Part shown: positions 11,852 through 37,500 of the stretch, in pieces
How the letters are laid out: each line of letters opens with the position of its first letter
How positions within the stretch are numbered: the first letter of the stretch is position 1
Origin: Polytrichum commune
Lineage: Eukaryota > Streptophyta > Polytrichopsida > Polytrichales > Polytrichaceae
NCBI GenBank assembly: GCA_950295325.1
Contig: OX485809.1
Location: forward strand, 25,854,001 to 25,918,000
DNA: 64,000 nt
Reading direction: 5' to 3'
Position numbers and translations under genes: made by a program
The notes under the pieces: generated by a model
What the model was told of the DNA's origin: nothing
Database searches by the model: none
Seen by the model: only the letters and a program-made list of their open reading frames with translations

Positions 11852-12300
11852 CCCACCTACAAAAACCAGAGGCACCAGGAGACCCAAACGTAAACGAAAG
11901 AATGACAGCCAACATGGACGACATTCAACGTAGCATGTCAAATCAGTCAAGTTCTAAATACCAACGTCCGTTCGTATACGACTGCAATAGTGAATGTGCC
12001 TATGTGTGGAAGTCAATAACTTAGAAAGCCTTTCAAAGTGCTATCATATTGATCGCTGATGGAATTTACGAAAGTACGTTCGTTAATTACAGACCATCGA
12101 CCTGCATGAGCAGAACGTACAAGTTTTTTATACGAACGTACGTTCGTATAGCATAGGATGAATGAGTTTGGGTATAAAGGTTTATAAACGAGGAGTTTTT
12201 TATGGAAACCAGTACAGAACTCGCATGTTGTATTAACGACCAAAATTTGTAAACCACAACTATCCCGAATTTCGAAGAGTATATCGGGACAAAATAAATA
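11852..12300. other. Spacer with first palindrome copies
   Basis: The upstream side of the DUF7869-type gene. It contains an imperfect palindrome near 12064-12090 and a perfect 22-bp one at 12129-12150 whose outer bases are TAT/ATA rather than TTT/AAA. A promoter for the minus-strand gene presumably lies here, but I cannot point to one. Confidence 0.4.
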
Positions 12301-13259
12301 GCATGTTTACGAACGCACGTTCGTAAAACCACAGAAATCACTATCTGCAGGTGTACACCAGGAAATCATAGATGGCGTACTTACGAACGCACGTTCATAA
12401 ATGAACAACCATTATATTTATAATTGCACATACATAAAAGCGTAGATGCCACATTTACGAACGCACGTTCGTAAATGAACCACCATTCGCATTGCAAATG
12501 ATTGATATACATGTGTCACAACGTCGACTCTGGTATACTTTGGTAGTTACGAACGCACGTTCGTAAACCCACAACATTGCGTCCGATCCAACTGTGCTAC
12601 TGATGGGACCTCATACTTACGAACGCGCGTTCGTAAAACCACAGCAACCCCCATCTGAATGTATAAACTAGGAAATCATAGATGGCGTACTTACGAACAC
12701 ACGTTCGTAAATGAACAACCATTATATTTATAATTGCACATACATAAAAACGTAGATGCCACATTTACGAACGCACGTTCGTAAATGAACCACCATTCGC
12801 ATTGCAAATAATTGATATACATGTGTCACAACGTCGACTCTGGTATACTTTGGTAGTTACGAACGCACGTTCGTAAACCCACAACATTGCGTCTGATCCA
12901 ACTGTGCTACTGATGGGACCTCATACTTACGAACGCGCGTTCGTAAAACCACAGCAACCCCCATCTGAATGTATACACTAGGAAATCATAGATGGCGTAC
13001 TTACGAACGCACGTTCGTAAATGAACAACCATTATATTTATAATTGTACATACATAAAAGTGTAGATGCCACATTTACGAACGCACGTTCGTAAATGAAC
13101 CACCATTCGCATTGCAAATGATTGATATACATATGTCACAACGTCGACTCAGTTACTTTGGTAGTTACGAACGCACGTTCGTAAACCCACAACATTCCGT
13201 CCGATCCAACTGTGCTAGTGATGGGACCTCATACTTACGAACGCGCGTTCGTAAGTATC
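12301..13259. repeat. ~310-bp tandem repeat, three copies, four palindromes per unit
   Basis: The string GGAAATCATAGATGGCGTAC starts at 12361, 12671 and 12981, a period of 310. Each unit has four palindromes of the ACGAACG family at matching positions. Copies differ by few bases, so the expansion is fairly recent. A further palindrome at about 12306 precedes the first unit. The last palindrome, 13231-13258, is perfect over 28 bp, while its equivalents in the two earlier units are perfect over only 20. Confidence 0.85.
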
Positions 13260-14526
13260 CGGTATTTGCGGCGGTATATGCGGGATATGCTATGTCCTGT
13301 ACCTGTGAGGAATACGGTTGGCGAACAGGAGGGTGGCTTGAGTGCGCTCCGACGACTCTCTAGAGCGCACACCTCCCGTCAGCTGCAGAAAAGAGCTCTC
13401 CCGTGGGGGGAAAAGCTTTAAGTACCTCCCCCGGTGGTTCAAAATCTCTTGGATGCTCTTTAAAAAGCGGATTCCCGCCCCCTACCTAGACCTACCAATA
13501 TGCCATTCCCGCCATGACCAATTATATAAATAGCATTTTGTATGCAACATGTATTGCATGCACGCACATTATATTGGAAAAAAATGTAAATCGGTCGCAC
13601 ACCTTAGATGTAACCAAGGTCTGCACCACCAAATCTATATATATATATATATATACATATATATGTTTCATGATATTTAAATATTATGAATTTTGACATA
13701 GAAGATTAAATGATTTGCAACCAAGGTGTGAAGTCCAAGTTAATTAACAATTCGTATCTAATACAATAATGGTATATTTGGTAATTGGAGTCATTTAGTT
13801 GATTTTGAGAATATTTAAGAACGCACTTTAAATTTCAAATATGGACTTGTAATTACAAACTAAAACTTCCATACGTATAGTTTCCAAATCGGATACACCT
13901 TATATTAGACATAAAGGCATTGAAGGGAACGAAATTATAAAACATAGTTACATGAAAATATTTGCACATGAAATGAGAAATAGACCCCAAAGGAAGGGAA
14001 CATACCGAGAATTAATGGAACTTGAATCAATTCAATGGAAATACCATCCATAACTCTTCTTAACCTTGATATATAAAAGAAACTAAATATAGAAACTAAA
14101 TATAGAAACTAAATTTATATCACTCAATAAGGTGGGAGTGGGACTCATGGACCCATGAACAGAAAATCATTGACGCATGAATTAAGGGCCTAAGACATGC
14201 AAGTTATAATAATATTAAGTATGGATTGTGTGAACAAATTGTATAATAACTATTAAGTTATTATTTCATCAAAACTCTTAAGTTTCAAGTTTTATTAATC
14301 ACATAAACCAAATTTTTGTCTCAATTCAATTAATTTAGAATCTCCAAATGACAATCGGCATGATTCTCAATTATTACGATTGATATGAATCGAATAAAGC
14401 AATTTCCAATCCATCGAACATCGGTAGATCATTTTGACATGCCCATAGATCACAACATGGCCACATACAAGACTACCATGTAAGATACAAAGATGCAGGG
14501 ATGTAGAGTTTAGGGTTGGTGATAGT
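13260..14526. other. Gene-free stretch with a TA microsatellite
   Basis: A GC-richer segment to about 13500 is followed by AT-rich sequence with (TA)n at 13637-13663. No gene or RNA is recognisable. Confidence 0.4.
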
Positions 14527-14563
14527 GTTTAGGGTTTAAGGTTTAGGGTTTAGGGTTTAGTGT
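14527..14563 (+). repeat. Short interstitial telomere-type repeats
   Basis: Several tandem or near-tandem TTTAGGG units (the plant telomere motif) with one TTTAAGG variant. Too short to be a telomere; probably replication or repair debris within the mobile element. Confidence 0.7.
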
Positions 14564-14944
14564 ATTCGACCACGTGGCTGCAATGCACAAGTTCAATCTA
14601 AAATGTCCTCAGATGAATGACGATAAACAAAATTCAAGCATGTTTACTAAGTTATTGAAGTTAATGTGATAGACGCATCCATTACATATAGGGTTTACAA
14701 ATCATGAATTTAATGTGAACTCATTACTTATACATTCAAGTCGTTATAAGTGTTACATATTGTAGAATGTTTCATTCAATTAATACTTAAGTTGAATTAT
14801 ATATACTATCGTTTATGTTTTTTTTGTATTAAACCTTAGGGTCCTATTTTTAAAAACAATTAGTGTTAATTCTATAAATGTTCATGGTTTAGGGTTTTAG
14901 TTGTACAAGTGTTACTTATACATTTTGTATGGTTTTTCTTTTTT

Positions 14945-16200
14945 AAACCCCCCCACCGAAGGCTGATTTTTCACAAAGGTTTTGCCCGTCCACGTCCAAA
15001 AACCTTGAATTGAAAGGCAAAAAAAATTGCAACCCGTCCCAAAACCGGTAATTATTTCTAAACCAACCCGTCCATGGAAAGGTTAAAGAAAAAACAACCC
15101 GTCCCAAAACAGGTAATTTCTAAACCAACCCGTCCATGGAAAGGTTAAAGAAAAAACAACCCGTCCCAAAACAGGGAATTTCTAAACCAACCCGTCCATG
15201 AAAAGGTTAAAGAGAAAAACCAATTAATAAAGATAAACCGAAAGATGTTGGCATGTGATTGGTTGCACTTGGAAACAATAGGATCTTGCTTCAATGCCAT
15301 CAATACTATGTCTTTTTGCTAATTTCAGCTGCCACCACCAGCATTCCCTCCACGACATTGCCCCCCCCCCCAATTTTTTCCATTTGAGTTTTGAAGCTCT
15401 TCCCATCGAGCAGGTATTGAAGCTCTTCCCATTAACAAATATGAGTTAGTTAGGTATCTCTTACACACATTCTTTCTATATCTTTTGGGCATGAGGGATT
15501 ATGAGGTTTTGGGTGAAGGATTTGATTTTTTTTTTTGGAACAAGAACTGGTAGGCTTCGCGGTCGAGGAGATTCAACCTACCTTTTTTGTCATGCACTGC
15601 AATATGTGAGAGGGGTTTTCCTAAACAAAACCTAATCAAAAATCATCTACGTACTAGTTTGAAGTTAGAAACTTTGATGCGCATTTCATGTGCAAATATT
15701 CCAATTGAAAACATAAATTGGAATGCAGTGATGCTTGTTTGGAGAAACATGAAGGATAGGAGAATTCATCCACTTCTTTGAAGGGTAAGTAGGTATTTAT
15801 TTTAAATTTTTTGATCATATTCATATATAATGATTCTTATTCAATTGCTAAGTGTACCTTCAATTATAATCTTTGACATTATGTTAAAAAGGTTCTAAAT
15901 TTTGTGGTTGATGAATTAATGTATGCAGGTGAATCATGCACTTCAATTTGATATTTTGATTGGGTATTAGTGCTTTGATTGCATTATGCTTATATTCACA
16001 TGTCATATATGACATAATGATATTTATACCATTTATGTTTTTGAGACAAAAATTATAAAAACATTATTTTTAGAACCCGTCCAAAATAAATTTGAAATGT
16101 CCAAAAACCGATTCATTTTCTAAGAACCCGTCCACTGGAAATGATTTTTTTTAATGAACATGTCCCTAGACATGTTAGGGACCTTGTGAAAAATCATCAC
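14945..16200 (+). mobile_element. hAT-type transposon remnant
   Basis: An open frame at 15587-15781 reads CERGFPKQNLIKNHLRTSLK and later NIDWNAV-like NINWNAVMLVWRNM, resembling the C-terminal dimerisation region of hAT-type transposases (zinc-finger-862 group). This is recognition by eye. The segment is bounded by inverted copies of TGATTTTTCACAA(A)GGT near 14968 and 16170, which may be its degraded ends. Between the left end and the frame is a tandem repeat. The rest of the transposase is missing, so this is a small nested relic inside the larger element. Confidence 0.5.
15020..15212 (+). repeat. ~62-bp tandem repeat, three copies
   Basis: AACCCGTCCATGGAAAGGTT recurs at 15064, 15127 and 15189, alternating with CAACCCGTCCCAAAACAGG. 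AACCCGTCC also appears singly near 16075 and 16125, close to the other side of the hAT relic. Confidence 0.75.
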
Positions 16201-16201
16201 T

Positions 16202-16400
16202 GCCCCTACCCCCCTTCATCTACCCATATCTACCCATCCCATCCCATCCCCACCCATGTCCCCTCCCCCCATCCCATCCCACCCATCCCCCTCACACCCT
16301 CCCATCCCCACCCATCTCCCCTCCCCATCCCCACCCATCCCCCTCTCCTCATCCCTTCCCATCTCCCATGCTCATCCCTTCCCATCCCATCCATGTTAAG
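16202..16400 (+). repeat. C-rich low-complexity tract
   Basis: Imperfect CATCCCATCCC-type repeats. Open frames on both strands here are artefacts of composition. Downstream, 16400-17238 has no repeat and may hold the promoter and 5' untranslated exons of the plus-strand gene, but I see no decisive signal. Confidence 0.7.
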
Positions 16401-17838
16401 CGCGGTCCAGTGGAGGGATGCCACATGGCAACCGCAGGGAAACCCTAGCGGTGCTGGCTACCTCCCCGCGCCCCTCCTCCTCATTCTCATTCCCAGCAGA
16501 GAGAGGAGGAGCGAAGTAGAGCGGAGCGAAGCTCTGGCGAAATTTAGAATGCTTTAGTTTATGTGTTTTTTTCGCATCTTAGGAGTCGCATATTTCTCTT
16601 CAGTTTGGAATGAATCTGATTAGAGAGCTTCAGAGTTGTGCGCATCAGGAGTAGAGAGCTTGTGAGCTTGTGAGCTTGTGCAGGTTGCAAGCTTTCTTTT
16701 TTTTGTTGTTTTTGTGAGCTTCATAGTTGCAAGTTCGGAGAAGACAGCTTGCTAGGTGACAACTTGAAGTTTGTAGGCTTCAGAGTTGCAAGCTGTGTTT
16801 TAGTGGTTGTTTTTGTGAGCTTGATAGTTGCAAGCTTGGAAGAAGGAAGCTTGATGGTTGCAAGATTGCAATTTCAGTGCACATGAGTAGTTGCTAGGGT
16901 TTAGGTCTCATTCAATTGCATACAAGGAGTGTTCCAAAATTTTCAGCAAGAAGAAACAAGGTCAAGCACATTGCAATGTGAGTGAAGTAATCCTTCTAAA
17001 CTCGCTTCCCAAACATTCTGAATTTCTGCATTGTTGAATTCCATGGGTTTTGTTTGTATTGTCAACTTCTTTAGCATGAGATCTGGCATGTTGTGTATGC
17101 TTTATGAATTCTGCACTGATTTGGTTTGAGTATCCTGGTTCTGATCCAGTGTTGCAGGCACGAACGCAAGCATTCTTCAGAGCTGAAGTGTATATGTATA
17201 CGTATACGTACATGTACGGACAGAACGCTCTCAAGAAGTTCACATTTACGAACGAGCGTTCGTAAATGTGAACACAACCTGCAAACCAGAGATGTTGTGA
17301 CCCCTCCCAGTCCATATGTTTACGAACGCACGTTCGTAAACACGCAACCCATCCTCTTTTCATGTGTTTACGAACGCGCGTTCGTAAACACGCACCCCTA
17401 AACCCCTAAACCCTTAAATTTTACGAACGCACGTTCGTAAACAAGGAATACATAATAGTCTGAGTATTTACGAACGCACGTTCGTAAGCACATAATCCCT
17501 GCCCATACCTCATTATACGAACAAGAGTTCGTAAATGACTGCCTTGTGCCCATCAAAAGATTTACGAACGTGCGTTCGTAAACACATGTTGAACAAATTG
17601 AAGATATAAATCAGTATAAGTCACAACAAAACAAAATAATATAAACACATTGGTATTTAAAACACGCAAACATCTAAAGCCAAAAGAACAGCCTCTCAAA
17701 CAGAACACATTTACGAACGTACGTTCGTAAATATCTCAACAACTATTGTTCAAAATATTTGAAAATTATAGAACTCTGTCTGCTAAATACGAACGCTCGC
17801 TCGTAAATACGATCCTGACTACCTATGTTGTTTTGCAG

Positions 17839-20800
17839 ATGGCCATCCCTAACAAAAGCGCGATAGAGATGTTCGAACAGAAGTTGGAGAGTGTCCCAGA
17901 GTCAGTGACCGACGACAATGGGAATGACAATTATGTCCCACAGGAGGACTTCATGAAAGAGTGGACGGCGCTTCCAGAGATGTTAGAGGATGGAACATTC
18001 ATCCTCCGCTTCGTCTACCAGCTCAATACCAACGACGATGAACCAGAGCAGTGGGTGCAGATGGCAACATGGGAGATAGATTCCGTGGAGGCACAGGGCA
18101 ATTACGTAATCCTCAACATGAAGTACAACAATGACCACATCAACGTGTTGCTGGACTACTTGGCATACACCTTCTCCCACAACTACGTGCAGATGCATGC
18201 TAAAGAGGAGGGAAAGCGTTTCGACCTGCCAAAACTCTTCACAAGATATAGCCTAAGTCAACATTGGACAGCAAGGAAATTGACCGCTTTGTGCTTGAAC
18301 ATCTCCAAGACCAACAGTGTTGTGTTGGAGGCCAACAAGAAGAAGAAGAGTCCCAAGAAACCAACGCAATCCGGTGCAGGCGGATCCAGAAGTGCTCCGC
18401 GGCCTGTTCCCACTGCAAGCAGATTGACCGAAGGTACGAGCAGACATTCCACTCCTTCGAAGAGAACGAGGGACGACATGGAGAAGTCTGGCGTAACTGA
18501 GGGCGCAGAGGTCAGTTCCCCGCCAGTCATGCCGGCTCCGTTGCAGAAAGGAGAGGTACCGGACGGTGCGAAGGCCACGCGCATCCTTTGAGATTTTAAC
18601 AGTTACTCGAAGGACTGCTGGCCAATGGGTCGATTCTTCACATTCAACGTCGACTGCTTCAAATGTGAAAAATCTCCAAACAAGTGGGTAGTGAGGTCAC
18701 GGGAGACCGGGGGTGTGAAGTGGCAGTTGAATAACCTCTACAACAACGTCAAGTGGGACATGCAAACAGTTTGTGTGATGCCAAAGGGCTTCACTACCCG
18801 TCCCACGGAGAGGGATTGGCCACGAATCCTCAACGGAGATTTCTGGATCATCGACGGACAGCACAGCTTGGAGGCTGCTAAGATTGTTCTGAATGACGAC
18901 GCCTTCCAGCACGAGCTGAAGGGCGACTTGCGCTATTGGAAGTCGTTTCTGGTGTGGTCAGACGACTGGGAGAAGCTCCGCAAAATATCAACGTATTTGA
19001 ATAGCGGAAACAAGATGAAAGCTTTTGAGGCGTCCTGGGCTGCGAATATTGTTGCTGCAAGAGACGTCTGGGTGGCACACGGTAGCCCCCCTAAGGAGAG
19101 GGAGAACGCCAAGAAACCTTCTCCACAGTGGAAGGTAAGTTTACGAACGTGCGTTCGTAAACATCATCTCAATATTTCCTTTCTTGTTTGCATTTTATGA
19201 ACGTGCGTTCGTAAACATCAGCTCAATATTTCCTTTCTTGTTTGCATTTTACGAACGTGCGTTCGTATTTTACTCTTGACTGACATCCATTTTAATATGC
19301 AGGCGTTCTGCGACGCTATGGTGGACAAATTCTCCTCCATCGACATGAAGTCTACTTCAACCAAGTCGGTGCTGGAGTTGAAAGGTGAGCTCAGGCTCAT
19401 ATGTTGTACAACAGACACCTGGGATTTATGGACCCAGTTTTTTGACGCTCACACGTCGGGAGATTTAACCAACCCCGACACGGAGGAGAAGTACAATGCC
19501 GTTGAGAACTTCGAGTGCCCCCCGTTGCTCAGGGAGTTCTTCAGACCCCTCCAAGGGCTGACAGAATCGGAGTTGAAGCGATGCGCCGTGCACGCTCTAA
19601 TGAAAACAGAGGGAAGGAAACTTCCCTATCCAAAAATATTTTTGAAGAGACCCAAGCACAAGCCCGGGACGTACTCCATCAAGGAGTGGTGCGAGCATCG
19701 AAAGCTGAAGACAGCAGCAATGAGGGAATTGAGCGCACTGGCACCTCAATACCAAATCTTCGACGTCGACGGCGACGTGAAGTGGAATCACTGGAAGGTG
19801 TTCAAGCAAGCCTTTAATATTAGAGGCCCCTCAATGCGAAGTCTGGTCAGGGAGCACGCCGCATCTTTGAAACTGAAGGGCAACAAACGGACTAAGAAGT
19901 CCGAGACGGATGCCCAGGAGGTGGGCTTTTATAAAAAAAAATTGGAGAGGAAGAGGACAGCAACATTCGAAGGAGTGGCAAGGTTTTGCACTGTCACCAC
20001 CGGCCTGGAGAGGACCACATTCTCTAAGTGGGACGGTAGCTTCACCAGGGCGGATGTTAGGGAGGACCGACGGGGATGCCCATTTGCCTTGATCGATTTC
20101 AGGAGCATCCCGGGTGCGTCGAGCCGCGGGACAAAGGACCTGCCATTCTACAACCCATTCATGGCCAAGTTCATGGAGTACAAATCTCCTGCCATGAGGG
20201 AGCCCCACGTTTGGCTATGGATTGTCGAGCACGAGAGGCTGTCGGAAATTCTGGAACTGTACGAGAAGACCATCAAGTTCGAGTACAGTATTTACCACAG
20301 CACCTATGTTCCCGCCAAGATAGAAGGGATCGTTGTAATCAACGAGGCCAGGGGAAACAAGCAGGTGGGAGCAGTCAGCCTCGTCTTCCTGACCTTCAAC
20401 CAACTAAGGGATGGGAGGGTCCCTATCAAGGCTAGCAATGTATTCAAGAAGATATACAACATCCCGCACCCACCTCCCAAAGATCTATTCCAGGAGACGT
20501 TATTTACTGTCATTCCCGCAATTGAACTCAGGCTGGAATTCTACATATCCATTCTCCAGAGTTTGACAACCCATGGAGAGACGGTGTACAGCATATACAG
20601 GGGCAGCAAGTTTTTGTACGCGGCCATGGTAAGCCCACTCTCATTTGTTTACGAACGTTCGTTCGTAATGTTCATTGGTCTATTAGTCTTAGTAATACTA
20701 GTTATCATACTAAGCTTGACATTTACGAACGCACGTTCGTAAAGACCAAGGTCTGCACCTGAAATAATAGGTTAGACATGAAGTCATTGGGATTGCTGAC

Positions 20801-22414
20801 TTTTACGAACGCACGTTCATATTTGCTGACATGTTCTAGTTTATGCTACAGATGCTTGGCTTGGTCGTCAATTCCTATCTGGACGCAACCGACGAAAAGG
20901 AGTACAAGCGTCACAGGGCAAAGGCGTCAATGATGGACCTGGGTGACATGAGTGGCCCCAGGACAGACTTCAGCTTGCCATCGGAGGGGGGAACGCCGGT
21001 AATTGACACGGATGATGACGAGCCCACCCCCTCAGCTAACCTTGAAGCGATCATCCAGTCGTTGGATGTCACTCCTCTGCTGTTATTGCCGCCATCAAGA
21101 CAGCCTTCAGACCCCCATGGGACTCCTAGGGGCTACACCGGGTCGTCTGCTGGGGCAACCCAAGATGTCGCCCCCGCAAGAGTATCTGGACTGGATCCCT
21201 TCGGCACACCTGGGGGATGCTCGACGTCGGGGTCTCCCAGGACCTCCTCGGTGCCAAAGATGGAGACACTCGACCTCCTCGACCAACGGTCGCGTCCATC
21301 CTTGGACCTCTTCAGGAACACGAGGAGGAGGATGAAAAAGACGCCCTACGTGGAGCTGCCGCCAGGGGCAATTATCGATGTGTCCGACGAGGACGAGGGG
21401 GACATGGACATCATGTCCGAGCTAGGGGTGGAGTACGACATGAACAAGCGGGTGAAGGAGGAATCCCTCACAGTTGCCGAGCTCAACTCCAAGCTGGAGA
21501 AGAAGATGAAGGAGGAAATGGCGGCAGCGCAGGAGGAGAGCGCCAGACAAATGGCGAGGCTGGAGAAGGAGCTCAGGGATTCCGCCGCAAAGACAGACGC
21601 CATCTTTGAGATGCTGAGAAGCATGCAGAGCATGTCTGCTCCGGTGCAACAGCCCTACCCCTATCCCCCTGTAGGACACCCCTCACAGTCCTCTTCGCCA
21701 GGAATGTACCAAGCAGGGCCATCCCACCCCCGAGCGCATCCAACACCGGCTGGAAGTCCTTTTCCACCTGAACTGGCAACAACGGCAGCGCCTTCGCACG
21801 ATGCGGTCTCTGCGGCGATAAGAGAGGACGAAGATTTACGAACACGCGTTCGTGAATCTTCAGGTGCGGCAGTCCTCACCCCTCCCCCATCAAGGGTAGG
21901 ACTGCCCTCAACTGCAGACAGGGTAGTTGCTAGGAGGGGCGATGACACTACGGAACACACTGACATGCTCATTGTGGAGGACACGCAGGGGAGCCCCAAT
22001 GATGCGGCATGTATCGCGTGCATGGATGTGGAGAGCCTTGAGCATTGTCATCATCCTTCCGCGCGGATGGAGGATGTCCGCATGGAGACTCTCGACCTGG
22101 GTGGGGACGAAGACGAAGCGGATCTCATCGAACAGACCCAGGCGTCCCAGGCTGGCCATGCACCAGAGGCCATGGAGGCAGAGGCAGCTGCTCCGATGGA
22201 GGTTACGAACGCGCGTTCGTTAATCGAAGAGGAGGGAACTGCTCGGTCCAGCGCCGCTGCCCCTCCCCCCGATAACGAGGTAACTCATCTCTGAGAATAA
22301 CTTTCATTTTACGAACGCGCGTTCGTAACCAACTAACCCCCTCGTTTGTTATTGGCGCTTCATGTCCAGTGGCATCAGGAGGCCCGCGCGAGCCTTTTCT
22401 GCGTGACACCCTAG
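17839..22414 (+). pseudogene. ParB-like / degenerate permuted methyltransferase-like protein
   Basis: Start chosen at the ATG at 17839, directly after an acceptor TTTTGCAG. Exon 1, 17839-19134, carries a basic linker (NKKKKSPKK) and, near residue 339, FWIIDGQHSLEAA, the DGxH signature of ParB/sulfiredoxin-like folds. Intron 19135-19302; exon 2, 19303-20628; intron 20629-20851; exon 3, 20852-22279; possible last exon 22370-22414. All junctions are phase 0. Exon 2 has PFALIDFRSIPG and, at its end, ETVYSIYRGSKFLYAAM continuing MLGLVVNSYLD. I read these as eroded catalytic motif IV and SAM-binding motif I in permuted order, as in beta-class DNA methyltransferases; this is inference. Exon 3 has an acidic patch and a coiled coil (LNSKLEKKMKEEMAAAQEES). 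A TGA at 18589-18591 breaks exon 1, with frame and composition continuing after it. Palindromes fill both introns. Confidence 0.6.
19135..19302 (+). other. Intron 1 of the ParB-like gene, with a 57-bp tandem duplication
   Basis: GT-AG intron of 168 nt. Three palindromes of family 1 sit in it because a ~57-bp unit (palindrome plus CTCAATATTTCCTTTCTTG) is repeated twice and followed by a third palindrome. Confidence 0.75.
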
Positions 22415-22894
22415 GCCTGCCAGTTTTGTAGGACAATTTTGTAGGACACGGAAATTGTGATAGATTATCACGTGAGACATTTGTAAATATTCAACGGATT
22501 TAATATATGAGCAGTTTATCTCTGCATCGGATTTTCCCAATTTTGTGCATCGTCTATTCAATCCCTGTGTTGTGAATGGTCTGGCGTCTCTATAAACTCT
22601 TGCATGCCCCTTCCTCAATCACAAACGCTCGTTCGTAAATGTGTGCGACCCAGTGTCCACCTCCTTCACGAACGAGCGTTCGTAGATTATGCCTGTAATC
22701 TCACTCACTCACGAACGTTCGTAAATGACGCGCGCCGCCACCCGCAGCCCTCATTCACGAACGCGCGTTCGGAAGTGTGCCTCTGAGCGCATTCGCATTG
22801 CACTCTAAACCCTCGCTCCCTCGTCATTCCCTTAATGCAATTTTAATTTATTTATTGGACCATATCATTGAACTAGTTAAATTGTTAATCACAG
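22415..22894 (+). other. Spacer with degenerate palindromes upstream of the FCP1-like exon
   Basis: Four family-1 palindromes at about 22620-22765, all with the outer TTT replaced by CAC- or TCA-like bases. The acceptor of the next exon is at 22893-22894. The first exon of that gene should lie here, but neither ATG at 22604 nor 22726 joins it convincingly. Confidence 0.4.
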
Positions 22895-23662
22895 GACCCC
22901 ACGAAGTTAAATCGCAACCCGTCGGCGAGTGGGCCTCAGACCCGTCACAAGCCCTTCCTGGTTCTTGACCTTAACGGGGTGTTGTGTCACACCCAACACA
23001 TCCCCAAGGTCCCCACCCGTTCCTTCCGCCAACCCGACGAGATGGACTACGACGGCCAGCTCGACACTCTGATAAACCGCAAGGCCGTCCGCACCCGTCC
23101 AGGCGTGTGGGACTTCCTTCGAGAGGTGCTCGACCTCTTTCACGTGGTCGTCTGGAGCTCCATGATCATGGAGAACACGGAGGCCATCGTCGACTTCCTC
23201 TTTCGTGGCCTCCCGAGACCATGCCTCGTCCTCGGCCAAGATGCGTGCGACGATCTAGTCGACGAGAAGGGGTTTCCCGTGCCCAAGTTCGGCGGTCGAG
23301 GAGGGGGACAACAGTTCCTCAAGGTCCTCCGGTCCAGGTTGTGGCAAGGCATCCCCATTCTCAAGGGGGTCCCCCACGGACACTGGCCGACGCCGGAGAA
23401 CACCCTCCTCGTCGACGACAGCCCAACGAAGAGCGTCCTCAATCCCCCGGGCACCGTCGTCTTCCCCGACACTTGGACCGGCGATAGGAAAGATACCTTT
23501 TTGGTCGATAAGCTAGCACCTTATCTTAGAATGCTAGTGCTCCACCCCGGGAGCATCCCTGATTTTGTTAAGTCCAACCCCATCGGCAACGCCGCGCTTA
23601 GTCCCCGCGACAATGTATATAAGAGCATCGTGCGGCTTGCAAAAATCAATAAATTGATTTGA
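22895..23662 (+). CDS. FCP1/SCP-like HAD phosphatase, 3' exon
   Basis: Open from the acceptor at 22894 to TGA at 23660-23662, about 255 codons. Near the start is FLVLDLNGVLCH, the HAD motif I in the DLNG form common in plant FCP1-like proteins: the nucleophile Asp is kept and the second acid is Asn. Then come RPGVWDFLREVLDLFHVVVW and WSSM (motif II region), a KDLR-like zone, and NTLLVDDSPTKS (motif IV). FCP1-like enzymes remove phosphate from proteins such as the RNA polymerase II tail; the Asn makes catalysis doubtful. It has no stop or shift, unlike its neighbours, and its codons are GC-richer. The upstream exon is not identified. It may be a captured host gene fragment. Confidence 0.7.
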   Translation, partial: DPTKLNRNPSASGPQTRHKPFLVLDLNGVLCHTQHIPKVPTRSFRQPDEMDYDGQLDTLINRKAVRTRPGVWDFLREVLDLFHVVVWSSMIMENTEAIVDFLFRGLPRPCLVLGQDACDDLVDEKGFPVPKFGGRGGGQQFLKVLRSRLWQGIPILKGVPHGHWPTPENTLLVDDSPTKSVLNPPGTVVFPDTWTGDRKDTFLVDKLAPYLRMLVLHPGSIPDFVKSNPIGNAALSPRDNVYKSIVRLAKINKLI

Positions 23663-23861
23663 ATTGCCACCGTGTATTTGTTTGTTTCCATGTGGATCAC
23701 ATTTCTAATTCCTTTTTTGGATGCCTTTTGGTCGTGTTTGTTGTTGTTGTTGTTGTTGTTGTTCACAGTTTGCCCCGCCTTGCGACGCCCCCCTCCTCGA
23801 TGGCCCTTTCATTCCCCGCTCGGCCCCTCCCTCCCCCTCGCGCGACGCGTCGAACTTCCGA

Positions 23862-24697
23862 ATGCCATCCCTCTACCAATTCTCGGCGGTGGACGCGGCG
23901 TCGGCCGTGGATTACTCCCGTGACGTCGGGATCGAAGACGGCGTCGTCAATAGTCCTCCCCCCAAACTCCACTTGCGCACGCGCGCACCCTCGCCCTCTC
24001 CCCTCTCCAAAGAGAAACGAACTCTCGTTCGTTTGGCTACGACGTCAAGGGAGGACGGTGTCCCTCGTCGCGGTCCGAGCCGGCGTCTCCGCATGGAAGC
24101 CCACCCACAGGAAGCCCTCCCCTCCGCCTCCGCTCCTCCCCCTGCCAACTCCTCCCACGTCGCTCGTCCCCCTTGCATTGATCCCCCCGTCAACGGCCCG
24201 AAAGCCAAGGTGCAATTTCTTTTACTCCCCTACCACATTTCCCGCCGTTGGTTTACTTGTCTCCCATGTTTACATTCCCTTGTGGCCGCGATGTTTACGA
24301 ACATACATCCCAAACCGCCGTCGTTTCCCCCACTCCGTTCAAGCCTTTGATTTAATCCCACTAAATTTGCTTTCTTTCGCAGGTGGCTACTCGCTCGATG
24401 GGTGCCCATCCCTCCTCGACGTCGTCCTTGGATAGGCTGGCACCCAAGGCCACGTCCTCCGATTCCGATCGTTGTTTGGCCGTCCGGCGAACCACGAGAC
24501 AATCTGTCTCCCAAACGCAATCGTATTCCACTCACCATACCACTTCGTACAATTCGGGAGCGCGTCCGGATAATATTATATGGAAGAACGGCACATATTC
24601 CGGGTCCGTCAACAGTAATGGTTATAGCCACGGGCTGGAGATTTTTAGGGCCATGGAGGCTGCCAAAAAAAAAAAGATGGCCGCGACAAAAAAATAG
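23862..24697 (+). CDS. Small two-exon protein of unknown function
   Basis: Exon 1, 23862-24209, starts MPSLYQFSAVDAASAVDYSR; intron 24210-24382 has GT-AG ends (AAG|GTGCAA ... TCGCAG|GTGGCT). Exon 2, 24383-24697, continues in frame and ends EAAKKKKMAATKK-stop, about 220 residues in all. The middle is rich in Ser, Pro and Arg; the C-terminus is lysine-rich. I recognise no domain. Exon 1 contains the palindrome-like AAACGAACTCTCGTTCGTTT in the frame that keeps it open. It follows the FCP1-like exon by 200 nt in the same direction and could be a separate gene or more of the same locus. Confidence 0.5.
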
Positions 24698-25042: not shown

Positions 25043-25071
25043 AAAAGTCTCTAATTAACGAATATAGTGTT
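25043..25071 (-). repeat. Right terminal inverted repeat of the 16.75-kb element
   Basis: Read on the minus strand it begins AACACTATATTCGTTAAT and differs from the left end at two adjacent positions. The next bases are CAC, then the minisatellite resumes. Confidence 0.8.
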
Positions 25072-25405
25072 CACGGTCTTCAACCCAGCCGAAACCACAG
25101 TATTTAATCCCAGCCGAATCCACAGTCTTCAATCCAGTCGAGCCACAGTCTTCAATCCAGCCAAGCCACGGTCTTCAACCCAGCTGAAACTACAATATTT
25201 AATCCCAGCCGAGCCACAGTCTTCAACCCAGCCAAGCCACAGTCTTCAATCCAGCCAAGCCACAGTCTTCAATCCAGCCAACCCGCGGTCTTCAACCCAG
25301 CCGAAACCACAATATTTAATCCCAGCCGAGCCACAGTCTTCAACCCAGCCAAGCCAAGAATATTTAATCCCAGCCGAAGCTAACAGTCCTTTATCCCAGC
25401 CGAAC
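25072..25405 (+). repeat. Minisatellite array, right half
   Basis: Same unit and direction as 7855-8319. It resumes with CACGGTCTTCAACCCAGCC immediately after the element's right end. Confidence 0.85.
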
Positions 25406-25528
25406 TAATTATCTATCTAATTCTACCAAGCCCCCTACCTAATTACCCTAACCAAGCTCCCTAATTCCACTAAGCCCCTTCCTAATTCCCACATACTTCC
25501 TAGCTCTAAGAACTCAAATTCCTAGAGA

Positions 25529-25529
25529 G

Positions 25530-25564
<35 letters not shown>

Positions 25565-25570
25565 AGAAAG
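25529..25570 (+). repeat. GA microsatellite
   Basis: About 16 GA units followed by an AAGAAGAAAG tail. The flanking 25571-26590 has no recognisable gene. Confidence 0.9.
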
Positions 25571-28011: not shown

Positions 28012-28076
28012 GGGGAGTGCTATCTTATGAGCGGTGAGCAATGAGCGGCGAGCGATGAGCGGTAACTTATGAGCAG
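28012..28076 (+). repeat. Left end of the Mutator-like element, GAGC-type subterminal repeats
   Basis: Starts GGGGAGTGCTATCTTATGAGC and continues as repeats of GAGCGGTGAGCAATGAGC type. The right end, 39218-39295, has the same arrangement on the opposite strand. Such short end repeats are plausible transposase binding sites. Confidence 0.8.
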
Positions 28077-31000
28077 TGAGGAAGATGAAAATTTTGGTAA
28101 TAGGGCCACCAATATCCTATAACCGTGGAATTGTGGCCTTAAAAATGATGATTTTAGGGTTTAGTAATAAGAGGGTTGAGAAGGATAAACAACATGAAAT
28201 CCAAAAATTTATTCATAAGTAGTAGCACTAGACATGAAACTATCTTTTGCCTCGTCATCTATATATATTCGAGCACCTTTGCATTGCGAATTGATTTTGG
28301 AACTATAGCAAGATTCTTCATTTGGATCCGAATCTTCGAGATTCAACATTGCAATTGCAACATTCTCGGCATATGATGGGAGACGCGGGCTACGACTTGG
28401 ACTTCGTAGGAATTGTCTATGTGCCCAAAACGGGAGACATGTCCTCTTCCCAATCGTATTCCCGAAATCAAATCGATGAAACATGTAAATAATGTGAAGA
28501 AATAAAAATGAACCAATGAATTGAATGAAACGAATGAATTGAATAAAAATTTATTGTATCAAAACTTACTCACACTCAAATTCAAGCATCTCCTCATCCG
28601 AGAGGTCATCATCTTCTTTTGTGAGATCTTGTATATTCTCCTTAGATGACCCCTCTTTCAAAACCTTTTCCAAAAGCGGTTTCAATATGTGCTCAAACAT
28701 GTCATTATCACCCTCAAATGCAAGAAGATGTTTGCCACATGCGCGTGTTGCTAGGATAGAAGCTCCAGTAGAACATGTCAAATCAACAACGCGTCCATTC
28801 GATGGTGTAAACAATTCAATAAGATCTTGAAAAAAAACGCGGCGATTTTTGATATGGCCCCCTCCAAGGTCTTCCCGATTTTTGAAGAAGCGTGTTTTTT
28901 TCATCCACAAAATTGAAAAGCAAGTTTTTGCTTTTCAATCCAGTCCCGAAAAAAATGGAGTTTGGTTGTCTCGTGGATTTTTTGGTAGTAAAATCCCTTA
29001 CCAAGACATGAGCCATAAATGCCGGAGTCTACAAAAAAATGTAAATTGTGTTAAAACTATATACAATGCAAATAACACCAAAATAATTAAATAGAAACAA
29101 TTATGATGTGTTATACTTACGGTGTAGGTTGGAGACTCTGGATCCTTGAACACCATGTACGAATTGAGGCAAATAAAAGTCCTAAGAACTTTCATGTTGC
29201 CGTTGTGTAAGGTTGAATTCAAAACCTTCTTGGTTTGCATATCGATAGCAGAAAATACTATGAGGACGCCATCATCAGACAAGATGGACTTGCACAAGGA
29301 CATTGTTGCAACCATCCAGTTCTTGTCATATTTATTCCAAAGAGGAATTTCAGCAGGTCTATTGGAGAGGTTGAAGTCAAAACCGTCCGGAAATTATAGA
29401 AAAACCAAGTCAACGGCAAATGGAGTCGGACTTCCCATGACATGAAATTCGCGATTGTCTTTGAACTGAAATACCACAACATATCACAATATAAGACACA
29501 AAATAAAATCCAAATGAAAGTAAGAACATTACGGAAAATATAAAATGAAGATTACTTACATTTTCAAGAAATGCCCGCCATTGGATCCACTCAGGAGGGC
29601 CTACTTCAACCCCTTCAGACTTGTTCTTGACAGCAGTAGATCGAGCAAAAGAGAGCGTAAGAAAGTTCTTCAGTATGAATAACTCTTTTCTCAAAACATT
29701 CGTTGGCGCACGATGAATAGCGTCATAGGTGCTGGAGTAATGAAATTCCAATACATCGCACCCGGATTTTGAACTTTCGCCTCCAAGTGTATTCTTATCC
29801 AAATCATTGGAAAGAACAAGCAATTCTTCATGTTGTGAAATTTCCGATTGACCTTGTATTTTGGTTTCAGGAACATGTTTTCTCTTACGACGTTTTGTCT
29901 CTTTTGGTTCTAGCTCTCTAAGTTTAAGCTGCACAATTTGTGCTTGCAAAATTGCAGTATCACGAGGATCTACATTTTTGGCATCATTTATCTGACGGAT
30001 TGTCTTCTCACTTGACGGATATGCATCCTTAGGACAATCAAGATACCAACCACAATCCTCATAGTGTGGGAGCGACCAATCTAAACAAATCTCAGTAGTG
30101 AACATGCATGAGTCTTCCGCACCAGTGTCACGCCAATTTGGAAAAAAACGAGGTTCTCCTATAACGCATTTGTGCGGAATCAAAACATATCGGAAATACC
30201 TACACACAAAAATATTATGAGCCAAATATTGAATGAAAAGTAAAATGTAATGAAAAAATATCAAGAAATAGTAAAGAATAAGTTGTACCTGTATAGAACA
30301 CGCTTCATAGCAAGATCAATATTCGGTTGCTCATCCCAAACGTTGTATTTTTTTACTTTTCCGCTTTTGAATTCACGATAGAATATTGAATTGAAAGCCG
30401 CAAACTTCCAGGTTTGGATATATTCGGAGAGAGTAGGCACATCTGCAAGCAATTGAAGAGGAGATGAAAGAATACTTTGAAGCTCTTCAATAGCTTTTTT
30501 CTCTAACTGTGCCCAATATGTAGCCTTTGATAACCAATCATCAAGTGCAGAATCAGAGAGGGGTGATTTCGGGAAATGCAATGCATCTTTGTCAAATCTA
30601 TTGCCATTCCAAAGCTTGAGCCATCCGACTTTGACATCTGGATCCACATTACTAACAGCAACACGATGAAATTTCTCTTGTAACATTTCAGGCACCGAAA
30701 ATGAACCCCAATGGTGCTTAATTTCTTCAAGAAAGCAGGGGTGAGGTTGATGTCAGCAATTGCTAGTTGTTTTGTAAAACTAGAAGACAACATTGCACGT
30801 TTTTTGTTGACAGCTGCGGACATTGCTTTAGAAACTCCTTCTGAAGTTCGTTCAAGAGGATGGGTTTCATTGTAAAGGTTGAGACCAATATCGCTAGCCT
30901 CGGCAAGTTCTTGCTGAAAAATCAAACAAAATCCAAAATTAATAAGTACATGTAGATGTGATGTAAATGAAAGATAAATAAACATTAAAAACATAGTAGG

Positions 31001-32235
31001 AAATGCTAGAAAAACTTACACTGTACATATAATCAAGAAAAATTGGCCGCGTCAAAGAATACCAAGTTTCAACGGACTTCTCCTCACATCGCTTATAACT
31101 TCTAGGATCCAGTTGTTTTTTAAAAGAAGTCAAAGGCATGGTGCCAATACTTTGCATCCGATACAAAGTATGCACCAAATTGGTAGAAACGTGAGAGTTT
31201 TCTGTTGACCTGAAAAAATATTGAATTCATGTATTTAGGATGATATAATTCAAATAACAAAATACAAACCAGAAATAAATGAAAATAAAGAAGTAAAAAT
31301 ATTACTTGTTGATGTCGTGCATAGCAGTCAACAAACTTGGAATGTCATCAAGCTCGGGCGCCAAAATGATGGAATCCACAAAGACATGACGCTCGTAATC
31401 TTCGGTATGCAAGCGGTCAATATAACTTTTCCAAGCAAAAAATCTGTGATTACCATCCCATATGAAGAACATCTTGTTCTTGTATGATGTAAATGAAGGA
31501 TCGGCATCTAATTCAGTTTCAAACACCGCATTAGCTTGAGCCCAATTTGGGCTCCAAGATGCACGAACCTCGTCATCCACAAATTGAAAATTTCCCTTAG
31601 AGTCGGTAGCCGATAGATAAAACACACGGTCACCATCACGATAACCATTGAAAAAGTCAGCCTCCAATTTAGTGATGTCGCCTTTCAAAGCAGGACGCAC
31701 AATAGGCATTGGAACCATGCGACATAAGGGTACACGCAAACGAGATTTCGGTCCAGCACGGATTGAGGAAATTGTTGAAGTGGAATTAATCTTTCGCTTG
31801 TCCGTAAGCTCCCAGACTTTCTGTTGATAGGTTTTATTGTCACGATCATTATCTTCATCCGAGTCAAAATCATCGAGAGATTCATTTATTTTTCTTATTA
31901 TGAAGATTTGACGATATGTCCTGATGAACATGAACTTGTTGAGATGGACGATCTTGAGTTGAATGCATTGTAGAATCATCACTAGTAGAAATAACAGTCG
32001 TTCTCTCCAAATCCATTGATTGGTCCTAAAACAAATGAAATAAGTTTCATAAATATTTCAAAACCAGTAGAAACACATTAGCAATAACATTACAAAAATT
32101 ACAGCAATAGCAACAACAATAACAACAGAATACCACGAACACAGGGAAGAATAACAAAAATTATTCTAGACACTACCATTTGCACCTTTAAATATTGTAC
32201 GATAAGGGTGGCCGCTCACCCCAAAACTACAAGGG

Positions 32236-32840
32236 CAGACCCTGTGCGTTAACGCACAGGGTCTGTGTGTCCAACTACAGGTCTACAAAAGTTGGGCGCG
32301 AGGTTTGGGTCGAACGACCCAAACTGTCCACGCGGTTTCGATCGAGCGACCCAAACCGCCTACAGCCAGTTTGGGTCGAACGACCCAAACCATGCTCACA
32401 GTTTGGGTCGAGCGACCCAAACTAGGCCGACAGTTTGGATCGCTCGACCCAAACTGCCCACAATTTACGCCTAATTATGCGCAATTACCCAGTCATCACG
32501 AAGGTACAAACAAACCTTGTACTGCACCTGTAGATGAGAGAGCTTGCAGCGACGAGCTCCGGTCCGATAGATGAGAGAAAAAAGACTGAATGCTTTGAAG
32601 GTGTGGCAATTTATACTACTCGTCCCTGCGGCCATATTTAGCGTGGCTCTTCGTGCCCCGCATGGCCGCTAGAAAGTTGCCAGCGCAGACCCTGTGCGTT
32701 AACGCATAGGGTCTACTTGCCCAACTTTGTGAAGCCTCTAGCTAGGCAAGTAGACCCTGTGCGTTAACGCACAGGGTTTGCGCTGGCAACTTTGAGGCCA
32801 CTGTGCGTTAGTGCATAAGGCCTGTGCGTTAATCGCACAG
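32236..32840. repeat. Palindromes family 2 and 3 in intron 1 of the methyltransferase-like gene
   Basis: Family 2 has arm GTTTGGGTCG and a 2-nt spacer: 32303-32324, 32369-32390, 32401-32422, 32433-32454, and an imperfect 32334-32357. Family 3 has arm CCCTGTGCGTT with no spacer: 32236-32265 (perfect 30 bp), 32687-32714, 32752-32779, and degenerate copies to about 32840. Two family-3 copies at 32674-32797 lie in a larger inverted pair that includes AAAGTTGCCAGCGCA. Confidence 0.88.
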
Positions 32841-33297
32841 GGCCGAGACATGAATTTGCTAAAAACTTTTTTTTTGAATTGGTAGATTTGCCAAAACTTG
32901 TAAAATCTGGAAAAAATGCTAATGGGGTCCAAAAAAAAATAAAAAAATATGCTATATTATCTAAATTTCTGTAGCTACAAAATCTTCTTATATTTTGTTT
33001 TGGTTTGAAATCATTCTCTTTTCTCATTCTTCTATCTATTTCCTTGTTTTGGGCCACCTCGTAGATTTTGGGTTTCGGGGCAAAAAAAAAATTATGCTAT
33101 TTTGTGTCATTTTCTAGCTCCTATAACGTATTGCATGAATACTTGAGTATACATATTTCTCATTTCTTGCATTCTAACCCCGTTTTGAATGGTTTTTTTG
33201 TTCCTACGCTCTGAAGATCGATTTAAATTCATACAATAGATATTTGTTTACTTTTAGGCTCTCCTAGTCGTTTTACCTCCCAGCTTTTGGCCTTCCT

Positions 33298-33720
33298 AAG
33301 TTGCTCTTACAAACCCTGTGCGTTAACGCACAGGGTTTCTCCTCCCAACTTTTTGCCTCCTAAGTTGCTCTTCCAAACCCTGTGCGTTAACGCACAGGGT
33401 TTCTCCTCCCAACTTTTGGCCTTCCCAAGTTGCTATTACAAATCCTCTGCGTTAATGCACAGGGTTTTAGCTCCCAACTTTTGGCCTTTCTAAGTTGCTC
33501 TTATAAACCTTGTGCGTTAACGTATAGGGTTTTACCTCCAAACTTCTCGCCTCCTAAGTTGCTCTTATAAACCCTGAACGTTCTTCTCCTGACTTCTAGC
33601 CTTCCTAAATTTCTGTTATATACCGTGTGCATTAACGTATAGGTTTTTTCCTCTCCAATTTATAACCTCTATAAATTGCTACTACATGATATGTGAGTGA
33701 ACGTACAAGGTTCTCCGTCC
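33298..33720. repeat. ~64-bp tandem array built on family-3 palindromes
   Basis: AAGTTGCTCTT recurs at about 33298, 33362, 33427, 33491 and 33555. Each unit holds one family-3 palindrome: 33311-33338, 33375-33402, 33440-33467, 33505-33532. Copies decay towards the right. Outer bases are AAA/TTT here but AGA/TCT at 32237-32264, changed on both arms together. Confidence 0.85.
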
Positions 33721-34053
33721 TAACTTACAACTTATGCACTATCAAATTATGTGAACGTTGAACTGACTTACCTTTTTGTTTGTCGTTTTCTTTGAACCCG
33801 TCTTCAATTCGGACTCTGATATACGATCATCTATATCTTCTTTGCTCTTTGCACCTTCATCATCCTCCATCGCATCAAAATCCAGTGTCTTCACAGTTTC
33901 TTCTACCGTACTCAACAAGTTTCTTTTCCCTTTCTTATTTGCATTCTTCTTTCCCACACTCAGTCTGAACCTCTTTTTCTCGGAAGTGAAATACAAAGCT
34001 TTCCTACGTCTTCTCTTCGGCCTCACGGGTGTTCTCTCTACATCGTCCACCAT

Positions 34054-34575
34054 CGTTGGTGTCTATGATATGTTTTCTATCAGGTACTATCATTTATTCT
34101 TCCAATGTATCTATCTCACAAAATCCGGCGTATATTACGATCACATGTTGTAATTGGCGTTCAATGAGCGAGATATTTCGACGCGTTTGTCATTATGTGT
34201 TTATTTTTGTTATATCCGCCAAAATTTTCTGACACCTACTTTGTTCTATTCATAATGAGCAATAATTTATTTTTCCAACCAATTTTAATTCTTTCTACAT
34301 CTACGTCAATCCACACATATATATTTTTGTTTTCTACCAATACTTTTAGTATTTGACGCCATTTTGTGTATATCTTGCTCGTAAATATTCTCTGACTATT
34401 ATTGTGTTATGTCAACTTCTGTATTATTAGATGTTATGTATCACACGCTTTCATCTCCATCCATTATTGTATCACACGTTTTCATTTCCATTCATTTCCT
34501 TATACAACTCTATACAAAACCAACATTCACCCCATATTTTTGTGATGTGTTGTTCATATGTTCTTTTGATTTTCT
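34054..34575. promoter_or_regulatory. Divergent intergenic region of the Mutator-like element
   Basis: The 522 bases separate the start codons of the two divergent genes of the element. Both promoters should lie here. The sequence is AT-rich; I cannot identify TATA boxes with confidence, and no palindrome of the three families is present. Confidence 0.4.
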
Positions 34576-37500
34576 ATGGCTACCATTAGAGCTCATGGAT
34601 CTTTTGTTCCCTTCATCTTGCCACTCCAAGATGATGGTCATGTGAGTGTTTCAGAGGATTTACTTAGTTTGAGATTCAACCTCCAGATAGGAACCATGTA
34701 TTTAGAGCATGAGATGTACTCTGCAGATGGAGAGGTGTATGAAACGATTTTGGTTCCAAAAAATAGAACTGATGTTGGTTTTATGTGGATCTTAGGACCT
34801 GGTTCATTTAGGGTGATAGGACTTTCTGAGTCTCAGATGCAAGCTTCAACTGTCATTTTGACAAACGAATCCGGTACATCCACAGTTCAAATTCCCTCTA
34901 TCGCACCTGTTAAGGTGGAACCCCTTGATGATAGTGTGTTTGTGCTATCAGATTCAGAAGATGACATTTGTGCATCTGTTGATCTTTCAAACACATCGCC
35001 ATTTCCATTCAGAAGTGTTCATTCTACTCCTTCCCAACTTCCTATACATATAGTCAAATCCCCTTGCGGTCTTATGTACAACAAGGTGGTTCCCCAAATC
35101 TCACCTTCTCAACGTCCTCCACTACACCCTTCACCTTCATCTACAGGGTTGACTATGGTTGATGCCTTGAAGCTGACAAAGTCAAGAAAAAGATCAAAGT
35201 CCGATCTTGCATCCATTGATTTTGACAGTATAGATGTTCGTGAAGTCAAGTACTTACCATCTTCTTTTAATGGTGATGTTTTGTTTCTCTTGCCTCCTGT
35301 GGCATTCAAAGCTCCAAGTACGTATGGTCACTCAATGGACGGCATGGACAAGATGTGCGACGGTCATCCTTGGTGCACCACCAAAACCACGAATATCCAA
35401 AATGACTTTGGACTGTCCTTCCGGCGCTCTACTTATGCTGGTCATCTCCAATGTCATAATGACTACTGTGATTACATGAATCGCAATGGGGGCCTCCGGA
35501 ACAACACTGAATGGGCCGGTTCAACTCCTATCCCATTTGCTGTGGGTGTTGTTCTCCCTACTAAGTCCACTATCGAGTGTAAGGTATGTCGGTCCACACC
35601 TGTGTGCATTGCTTTGTGTAATGCTCGAATTATATACATCCACTCCACATCCGTTGGAATGTCCAGGGCTTGCATTCATCTTGGTGTACATGATCACCCT
35701 GTGGCCAATGGCACATGCCGTGAATCATTGGACATGGCATACCAATGCGTTGCAAATGAAGTATTGAAAACACCCACAGCAAAAAATTCAGCCATAGTTA
35801 TGGCGGCGAGCAAACAATTCTTGGCCGATTACCTTCTCAAATCTCCCGCAAATGTCGAAGGCCATCACTTGGTTGGTTCATCCCTAGAGGTAGTCATGGA
35901 CAAATTCAGCACTCTTGCGTCTCCAAATTGTCGTAACTTTGTATCTGGATCAAAGCGTTTTTTGCGTAGTGGAATGGGAACTATGGATAGTATTATGGCG
36001 CTCAAAGACCACTCTGCTTTCAAATTCGTCCATGGTAGTCGGTTCCCAGGGCAGTCAAAGGACAAAGTGTTTGTTTTTAAGATGTCTGTAGACCTTCCAG
36101 GTAGTGGTGTGGAGCTTGTGAAGAGGATGCAAGTCGGTGGGGATATGGAGAATTCATGGATTATGTTTGACCATGTCAAACGTTTGAAGGACTGGACGAC
36201 CATGGCTTGCCATGTGTACAACAGTCGATATTGTAAAGTGTTGACTATTGCGTGTTGTGACATGCAATCTGAAGATGGTGCAGCACAAATTCTCTTTTGG
36301 GAAAATTTGAATGGTGTCATGGCAGAAAATGGTGTACCATACGTAAACTTCAAAGGGTTTATGGCTGATAGTGCTCAAGCTAATTGGAATGCGGTGAGGG
36401 CGATTTACGGGGATGGTGATCCAAGTCTACCCATGGTTGCACGTGAGCGTACATGTCTTTTCCATTGGTCCGCAAGCTTGGATAAGGTGATCCAAAAGTA
36501 TATCAAACCATCCTTGCAATTTCAACACAAACAAATATGCAAGGATTACAAAGACGCGAAAACAATGGACGACGCTGAGACCAAGTACCATGTGATTCGT
36601 TCTTGGTGGTTGTCATCTGGAGCTGCCTCCGAGGAAGGCATCCTTGGCCTTTCAGAGTGGTTGGGATTTTGACACTTTCGTTACAGACAATGGGGTGGTC
36701 ATATGCTACTTGTAAGTACATATCAAACTTCATTATTCAATGTAATATATCTTATGTTTTTCTTATCTTTGTCTTTCTGTATTGTTCATAGGATATGACA
36801 ATAGAAGAGCGTACGGGAATGCCAACATGCAACCTTGCAGAGACTGTACACAACAAACAACAAATAGTTTGGGTCGTTCGACCCAAACTTTGTATGCAGT
36901 TTGGGTCGTTCGACCCAAACCTTGTAGGCAGTTTGGGTCGTTCGACCCAAACGTGGCAGCCATTTTGGGTTGAACGACCCAAACCTAAATATATAATCTA
37001 TCTTATGTTTGTCTTATCTTTGTATTTGTGTGTTGTTCATAGGATATGACAATAGAAGAGCGTGCGGAAATGCCAACATGCAACCTTGCAAAGACTGTAC
37101 ACAACAAATGGCTCCAACAGTCCGGGAACAAGATGACTTGTTTATATGAAGCTACAGTGGACGACATGATCCGTGCTTTCATGCAAATTGCAAATTACCG
37201 GACATGGTTGAAAGGGGGGTCTGATGGTAAAGGTCCTGATTCGGCATCCTTGAAACTCAAAGCGGCTGCAAGGTGTGGAGATCCAAAAATGTTGGCCGAT
37301 GCCATGAAGTCTTATCCAGGGGCAGAAGACGTCAACACTAGAGATTGTGCATTGGAAGGGTCAGAGCTCTTTGGTTCCACCAAACACAAACTCAACCTAC
37401 CACCGGGTGCTGATTGTGACTCTCATCGACCCGACAAAGTAAACTATTCCATTCCCCGTCCGAACACCCGAGCAACTCGTCAACGCATAGAGGAATCGTT

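Follow-up and report, generated by a model that had tools for sequence, protein, structure and literature searches.

Palindromes as candidate cognate sites of ParB-like proteins in two DNA transposons of Polytrichum commune

Two DNA transposons in a 64,000-nt stretch of Polytrichum commune DNA (assembly GCA_950295325.1, contig OX485809.1, positions 25,854,001–25,918,000; hereafter the window) each carry a gene for a ParB-like protein together with families of short palindromes that, within the window, occur in that element only. With a probability of roughly 55%, we favour the explanation that the ParB-fold proteins encoded by element 1 (about 8323–25073) and by the Mutator-like element 2 (about 28012–39295) bind to cognate palindromes, in promoters as well as introns, and sustain the element's expression in a way comparable to VANC and VirB; protein–site binding, the dimer and relief of silencing are what we infer from sequence. 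Each element would encode a ParB-fold protein, probably a dimer, that reads its own palindrome as a pair of half-sites separated by a short spacer. The sites, often in tandem repeats, lie in promoters and introns of genes that belong to the same element, and loading of the protein there would most likely keep these genes expressed against host silencing, by anti-silencing or autoregulation. With a diverging protein, arms and protein would change together, which we propose makes recognition self-specific.

Family 1 (ACGAACGNNCGTTCGT, at most two mismatches) has 39 sites between 11960 and 24032 and none elsewhere in the window, compared with a mean of 0.06 and a largest count of 2 in shuffled sequence. 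Family 2 (GTTTGGGTCGNNCGACCCAAAC) and family 3 (CCCTGTGCGTTAACGCACAGGG), each searched with at most three mismatches, have nine sites (32303–32454 and 36867–36984) and seven sites (32240–33529; nine at up to six mismatches), respectively, and shuffles gave none of either. The palindromes reported in the initial annotation are therefore real, their numbers far exceeding chance. In families 1 and 2 the arms are constant and the central NN is free between fixed CGs, and the centre of family 3 is a near-fixed TTAA.

The ParB-like gene of element 1 (17839–22294, plus strand; exons 17839–19134, 19303–20628 and 20852–22294) holds family 1 sites in both of its introns: three in intron 1 (19139–19267), within a 54-bp tandem unit, and three in intron 2 (20649–20825). 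Nine further sites (17238–17805) lie 5′ of the gene, part of them in a probable 5′ intron, and 16, including degenerate ones, lie 5′ of the DUF7869 gene (11960–13257), mostly within about three tandem copies of a 310-bp repeat. Five sites follow exon 3, 5′ of a NIF-like gene (22309–22772), two fall in coding sequence in the tail part of exon 3 (21838–21853 and 22205–22220), and the last, isolated site (24017–24032) has one mismatch. Upstream of the ParB-like gene of element 2 (28570–32016, minus strand; about six exons with several frame breaks, the ParB-fold exon being 31306–32016) are one family 3 site (32236–32265) and a cluster of five family 2 sites with a 32-bp unit (32303–32454). Family 3 continues with two good sites and one degenerate site at 32687–32820, and with an array of four sites and one degenerate site in 65-bp units 5′ of the transposase gene (33311–33644). 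That gene, transcribed divergently from the ParB-like gene, holds four more family 2 sites inside it (36867–36984), again in a 32-bp unit.

Family 1 avoids coding sequence: assigned coding sequence makes up 7821 of the 16751 bases of element 1 and holds 2 of the 39 sites, where 18.2 would be expected (P = 1.3e-8; P = 2.3e-6 after removal of tandem-repeat copies 2 and 3). None of the 15 arm changes in the family is compensated in the opposite arm, indicating that the arm letters are kept beyond mere pairing. Twelve of these changes are at CpG positions, to which 8 of the 14 fixed positions belong; seven of the twelve are CpG transitions and may reflect loss of methylated cytosines. No such CpG excess is present among the changes in families 2 (1 of 4) and 3 (3 of 17).

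A profile search with exon 2 of the element 1 gene yielded 62 relatives, all predicted open reading frames (ORFs). Because many of them extend beyond splice sites into introns, the ORF tails spell palindromes in protein letters, and it is from these letters that palindromes outside the window were read, except at one locus, L005, described below. Tails of at least nine residues were present in 45 of the 61 relatives other than P0003 (26 in clade A, 13 in clade B and 6 in clade C), and window palindromes were searched in them as translations in diagnostic frames. Family 1 was found in 12 of 26 clade A tails and in none of the 13 clade B or 6 clade C tails; P0003, itself of clade A, likewise spells family 1. 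Family 2, which in the window belongs to the Mutator-like element, was found in 3 of 6 clade C tails and in no tail of clade A (0/26) or clade B (0/13), and family 3 was in none of the 45. A third frame (RTxVR) fails to separate clade A from clade B, occurring in 10 A and 4 B proteins. Post hoc, clade B was seen to have an ACGGACG variant, ACGGACGNNCGTCCGT in five proteins and possibly ACGGCCGNNCGGCCGT in two, and clade C to spell also TTTCGGTCGNNCGACCGAAA (two proteins) and TTTGGGCCGNNCGGCCCAAA (one). As the same tails served to define patterns B, C2 and C3, the independent part of the co-variation test consists of A and C1.

In a 61-row tree (P0051 omitted as too short), the three clades had support of 100/99, 98/95 and 100/100, with every one of the 23 rows of readable palindrome type falling in its own clade: 13 in A, counting the window and P0014, which was typed by a looser pattern, 5 in B and 5 in C. 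The remaining rows comprised 8 ambiguous ones and 30 without a motif. No motif was present in the 23,681 residues of core protein sequence and almost none in shuffled tails. Together, these readings give good support to the view that clades A, B and C each have their own arm sequences, co-varying with the protein. The interpretation in the initial annotation is thus supported in part. The cognate protein–site pair that it put forward is well supported for element-1-type clades A, B and C, where the co-variation check that it called for was positive; its statement that each family belongs to its own element alone holds within the window and fails across relatives, family 2 also accompanying clade C proteins of the element 1 type. 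The viral contigs searched contained no relatives, and the prokaryote genomes none of the element 1 type; the family 1 pattern occurred in four viral contigs with one palindrome each. The tails of P0011, P0047 and P0057 contain altered motif copies (for example T to M, as from ACG to ATG), which resemble the products of CpG decay in dead copies.

Within clade A, the sites appear to have outlasted the introns around them. Among 24 tails that start at the donor, 20 hold the motif (loose pattern, decayed forms allowed), the other four being 4 to 15 residues long; the corresponding counts for the clades' own motifs are 6 of 15 in B and 5 of 7 in C. When 20 tails were compared, 47 pairs aligned with the motif unmasked and three with it masked, all three among P0004, P0047 and P0051. 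The flanking intron sequence is thus mostly unalignable, and the sites have been preserved against a randomized background. A motif-free palindrome test, which has little power because codons are degenerate, gave 11 of 41 tails at p ≤ 0.05 and 3 of 41 at p ≤ 0.01. It is highly improbable that the palindromes are functionless repeats spread passively by tandem duplication: many copies do lie in tandem repeats (310-, 65-, 54- and 32-bp units), but the same arms persist throughout clade A, at 60–91% protein identity, in intron surroundings that cannot be aligned outside three close relatives. The passive hairpins that the initial annotation had allowed for are further disfavoured by the lack of compensated changes and by the depletion from coding sequence.

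The same introns bear on the possibility that the palindromes act in RNA, as hairpins close to the 5′ splice site through which splicing of the gene's own transcript is controlled. In 18 of the 20 motif-bearing clade A tails the first palindrome begins 18–24 nt from the donor, as such hairpins might, and many window sites are in introns or in the probable 5′ intron. The uncompensated changes in family 1 nonetheless argue against it, as does the conservation of arm sequence beyond pairing within clades; moreover, a loop of two bases ill suits an RNA hairpin, and three different genes have clusters on their 5′ side as well. We regard this explanation as quite unlikely.

For the element 2 type, a second locus, L005, allowed DNA to be compared directly. 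This contig of 4.7 kb, assigned to a cyanobacterial draft genome (uncultured Synechococcales), is the one stray contig that a search of prokaryote genomes for this type returned, and since its gene apparently has introns it is probably eukaryotic stray or contaminating DNA. Its ParB-like exon is 42% identical to that of element 2, and the downstream exons are related (E = 2e-15, 22% identity). Four palindromes, TTGGGTCTCG-GATC-CGAGACCCAA and variants, lie 0.2–0.5 kb upstream of the start codon in units of roughly 107 bp, an array that resembles that of element 2 in position and layout and differs in sequence. A different array upstream of a related gene again supports a cognate pair; a motif that changes with the protein is accordingly seen in the element 1 type, and for the element 2 type in one further locus only. 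The core in L005 is CG-N4-CG, resembling family 3, whereas families 1 and 2 and the element-1-type clades have CG-N2-CG. On this likeness we suspect, from the one further locus, that element 2's own protein has family 3 as its site and that the protein matching family 2 is one of element-1-type clade C. The 120 tails listed of 129 element-2-type relatives showed no palindromes by eye, as expected if sites of this type lie upstream.

Alternatively, the palindromes could serve the transposase, or some other protein of the element, as sites in transposition or transcription, with the ParB-like gene just travelling along. The largest cluster of element 1 (16 of 39 sites) does lie 5′ of its putative transposase gene, and a transposase, too, could diverge in step with the element that encodes it. 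The sites are, however, internal rather than subterminal: in element 1 the first is 3.6 kb from the left end, and the last cluster and the isolated site are 2.3 kb and 1.06 kb from the right end. The ends of element 2 carry other short repeats, of the ATGAGCGGTGAGC type, at 28027–28063 and 39207–39281, which are more likely than the palindromes to be its transposase sites. Family 2 is common to the Mutator-like element and to clade C relatives of the DUF7869-linked gene, whose accompanying transposase was not seen, and in relatives the sites fall in introns of the ParB-like gene itself. Transposase sites, an alternative named in the initial annotation, are accordingly disfavoured, and we hold them to be unlikely.

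The element 2 domain has the ParB/Srx fold and folds like ParB; the element 1 protein is tentatively linked to ParB by a DGQHS motif, located in exon 1, and by weak profile matches, and a profile comparison between the two proteins was not significant. DGNH is present in 80 of 121 element-2-type proteins and DGQH in both element-1 relatives that cover that part. The CTP-binding box of ParB proteins is GERR; GE[RK]R occurs neither in the pieces from the window and L005 nor in any of the 63 element-1-type and 121 element-2-type proteins, of which many are fragments.

A further possibility is a protein that is, or derives from, a DNA methyltransferase and modifies the palindromes to mark its own element. 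The C-terminal part of the element 2 protein, which follows the ParB-like part, contains GRVVDLTCSTGAS, which resembles the SAM-binding methyltransferase motif I, and is a weak match to profiles of DNA methyltransferases (phrog_67, E = 0.0012; phrog_3008, E = 0.016), with PF13489 at E = 0.1. Its two best Protein Data Bank rows by sequence are methyltransferases (E = 0.25 and 0.35, not significant), and sequence comparisons with the Protein Data Bank produced no significant match of relevance here; the palindrome arms contain CpG. L005 has a motif-I-like DDVILDITASTG by eye, but its long exon has no methyltransferase profile match, and neither does element 1, where motif I is likewise seen by eye only. 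Motif IV of beta-class DNA methyltransferases is [DNS]PP[YFW], and this pattern was found in none of the element 1, element 2 and L005 pieces, 63 element-1-type proteins and 121 element-2-type proteins, the latter mostly represented by the ParB-like exon only. At the motif-IV-like place, again by eye, element 2 has a stop and then FPD, L005 has DVPE and element 1 has DFR. A by-eye reading of element 1 exon 2 as a degenerate methyltransferase found no profile support and is not claimed. In phages, according to the available text of a ParB-fold survey, ParB domains are often fused to N6_N4 methyltransferases (PMC12704722), the same order of parts as in element 2; our proteins differ in lacking a detected canonical motif IV and in belonging to eukaryotic mobile elements. 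Such phage fusions are a plausible source of the element 2 architecture. Precedents for 4mC in eukaryotes have been described in bdelloid rotifers and Marchantia (PMC8885841, available text). Altogether, we consider a modifying enzyme very unlikely.

To our knowledge, the best-known case of transposons relieving their own silencing in a sequence-specific way is the VANC family of Arabidopsis, whose domain is DUF1985. No VANC-type domain was matched in Pfam searches of four element 1 ORFs, element 2 exons 1 and 4 and pieces of exons 5 and 6 (exons 2 and 3 not included), and relatives. As far as the available text of two reports goes, VANC is a second protein encoded by the Mutator-like VANDAL elements, and its motifs, arrayed in tandem within introns and non-coding upstream regions, evolve together with the protein (PMC5735166; PMC10398659), much as we describe here. 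VANC differs in that its motif is a 9-base non-palindrome (YAGTATTAY), whereas the motifs here are palindromes, the fold is that of ParB, and one of the elements is not Mutator-like. VirB of Shigella, a ParB relative, is described in the text available as loading at palindromic sites near promoters and relieving silencing at a distance (PMC10770331); the ParB fold and palindromic sites are shared, and loading is what we propose here. VirB is bacterial and acts against H-NS, whereas the present proteins are from eukaryotic transposons. The ParB–parS systems of bacterial chromosomes and plasmids share with element 2 the ParB/Srx fold, and with both elements palindromic sites linked to the gene. 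They differ in that no ParA was found in the 10 ORFs scanned (small or split exons were not all included), in the DGNHR/DGQHS motifs without GE[RK]R, and in the site sequences, here about 16–22 bp. Fungal DNA transposons with a TET/JBP gene are a further case of several transposon lineages with a gene possibly acting on silencing; there the product is an enzyme, and the available text mentions no cognate element-specific sites (PMC12730594). Among the literature matches listed, which consist of titles and abstract starts and mostly exclude subscription journals, none describes a ParB-like gene in eukaryotic transposons, and the main text of the ParB-fold survey uses neither 'transpos' nor 'plant' although it covers eukaryotes and mobile elements (PMC12704722).

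More tentatively, the two elements could represent an undescribed self-recognition system of eukaryotic DNA transposons, in which ParB-fold proteins, some with a methyltransferase-derived part, would load at cognate CG-N(2 or 4)-CG palindromes, spread over the element and exclude silencing. Such a system would have arisen in, or moved between, two superfamilies and would have exchangeable specificities, as family 2, common to the Mutator-like element and element-1-type clade C, would suggest; we think this possible rather than probable. If the favoured explanation holds, ParB-fold proteins would give transposons a second route to anti-silencing, unrelated to VANC, and self-recognition would be seen to evolve repeatedly; they would also offer orthogonal protein–site pairs for editing silent chromatin. 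The palindromic code read from about thirty relatives, with arm sequences for three clades, would make protein–site co-evolution directly testable.

The ParB-like gene copies of both elements in the window are broken. In element 1 the damage is a single in-frame stop (18589–18591), and P0003 and P0043, both of the relatives that cover the site, are open there; P0043 aligns over exons 1 and 2 (17893–20634), and P0003 reads through intron 1. Element 1 (no strand assigned) was delimited by eye from its inverted ends, CACTATATTCG.../...CGAATATAGTG. The ends start with CACTA, and a CAC target duplication is possible, ambiguous within a repeat; the CACTA superfamily has CACTA ends, a 3-bp duplication and a CACTA transposase. 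The putative transposase gene (8729–11950, minus strand), defined from ORFs, matches DUF7869 only in Pfam (PF25273, E = 2e-40 on the ORF 9170–10261). The NIF-like phosphatase gene (22979–23662, plus strand; PF03031, E = 3.3e-11) is probably a captured host gene and, having its own upstream palindrome cluster, is perhaps under control of element 1. An internal stretch of the element (13773–14042) forms a 270-bp inverted repeat, 75% identical, with the right end (24815–25066), perhaps a second end from a nested or older insertion. A 23-bp minisatellite (AGCCAAGCCACAGTCTTCAACCC) at 7860–8320 is split by element 1 and resumes at 25072, running to 25404.

Element 2 (no strand assigned) has inverted ends at 28019–28080 and 39227–39288 and is flanked on both sides by the target duplication GGTAGATCAC, features that fit the Mutator superfamily, in which target duplications are about 9–11 bp. 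Its putative transposase gene (34576–38410, plus strand) was recognized from ORFs: one of 698 aa has no Pfam match, MULE transposase domain included, and another (37637–38410) has a weak SWIM match of 0.035, below the cut-off. The gene has a non-coding interruption at about 36680–37040, where two 118-bp copies, 92% identical (36740–36857 and 36991–37108), bracket the family 2 cluster; this array was probably gained with the duplication and now lies in non-coding sequence. Scans for Rfam families at gathering scores and for tRNAs gave no hits. Farther along the window, 46844–58000 is occupied by a repeat family of 0.1–0.7-kb copies in both orientations, about 67–82% identical.

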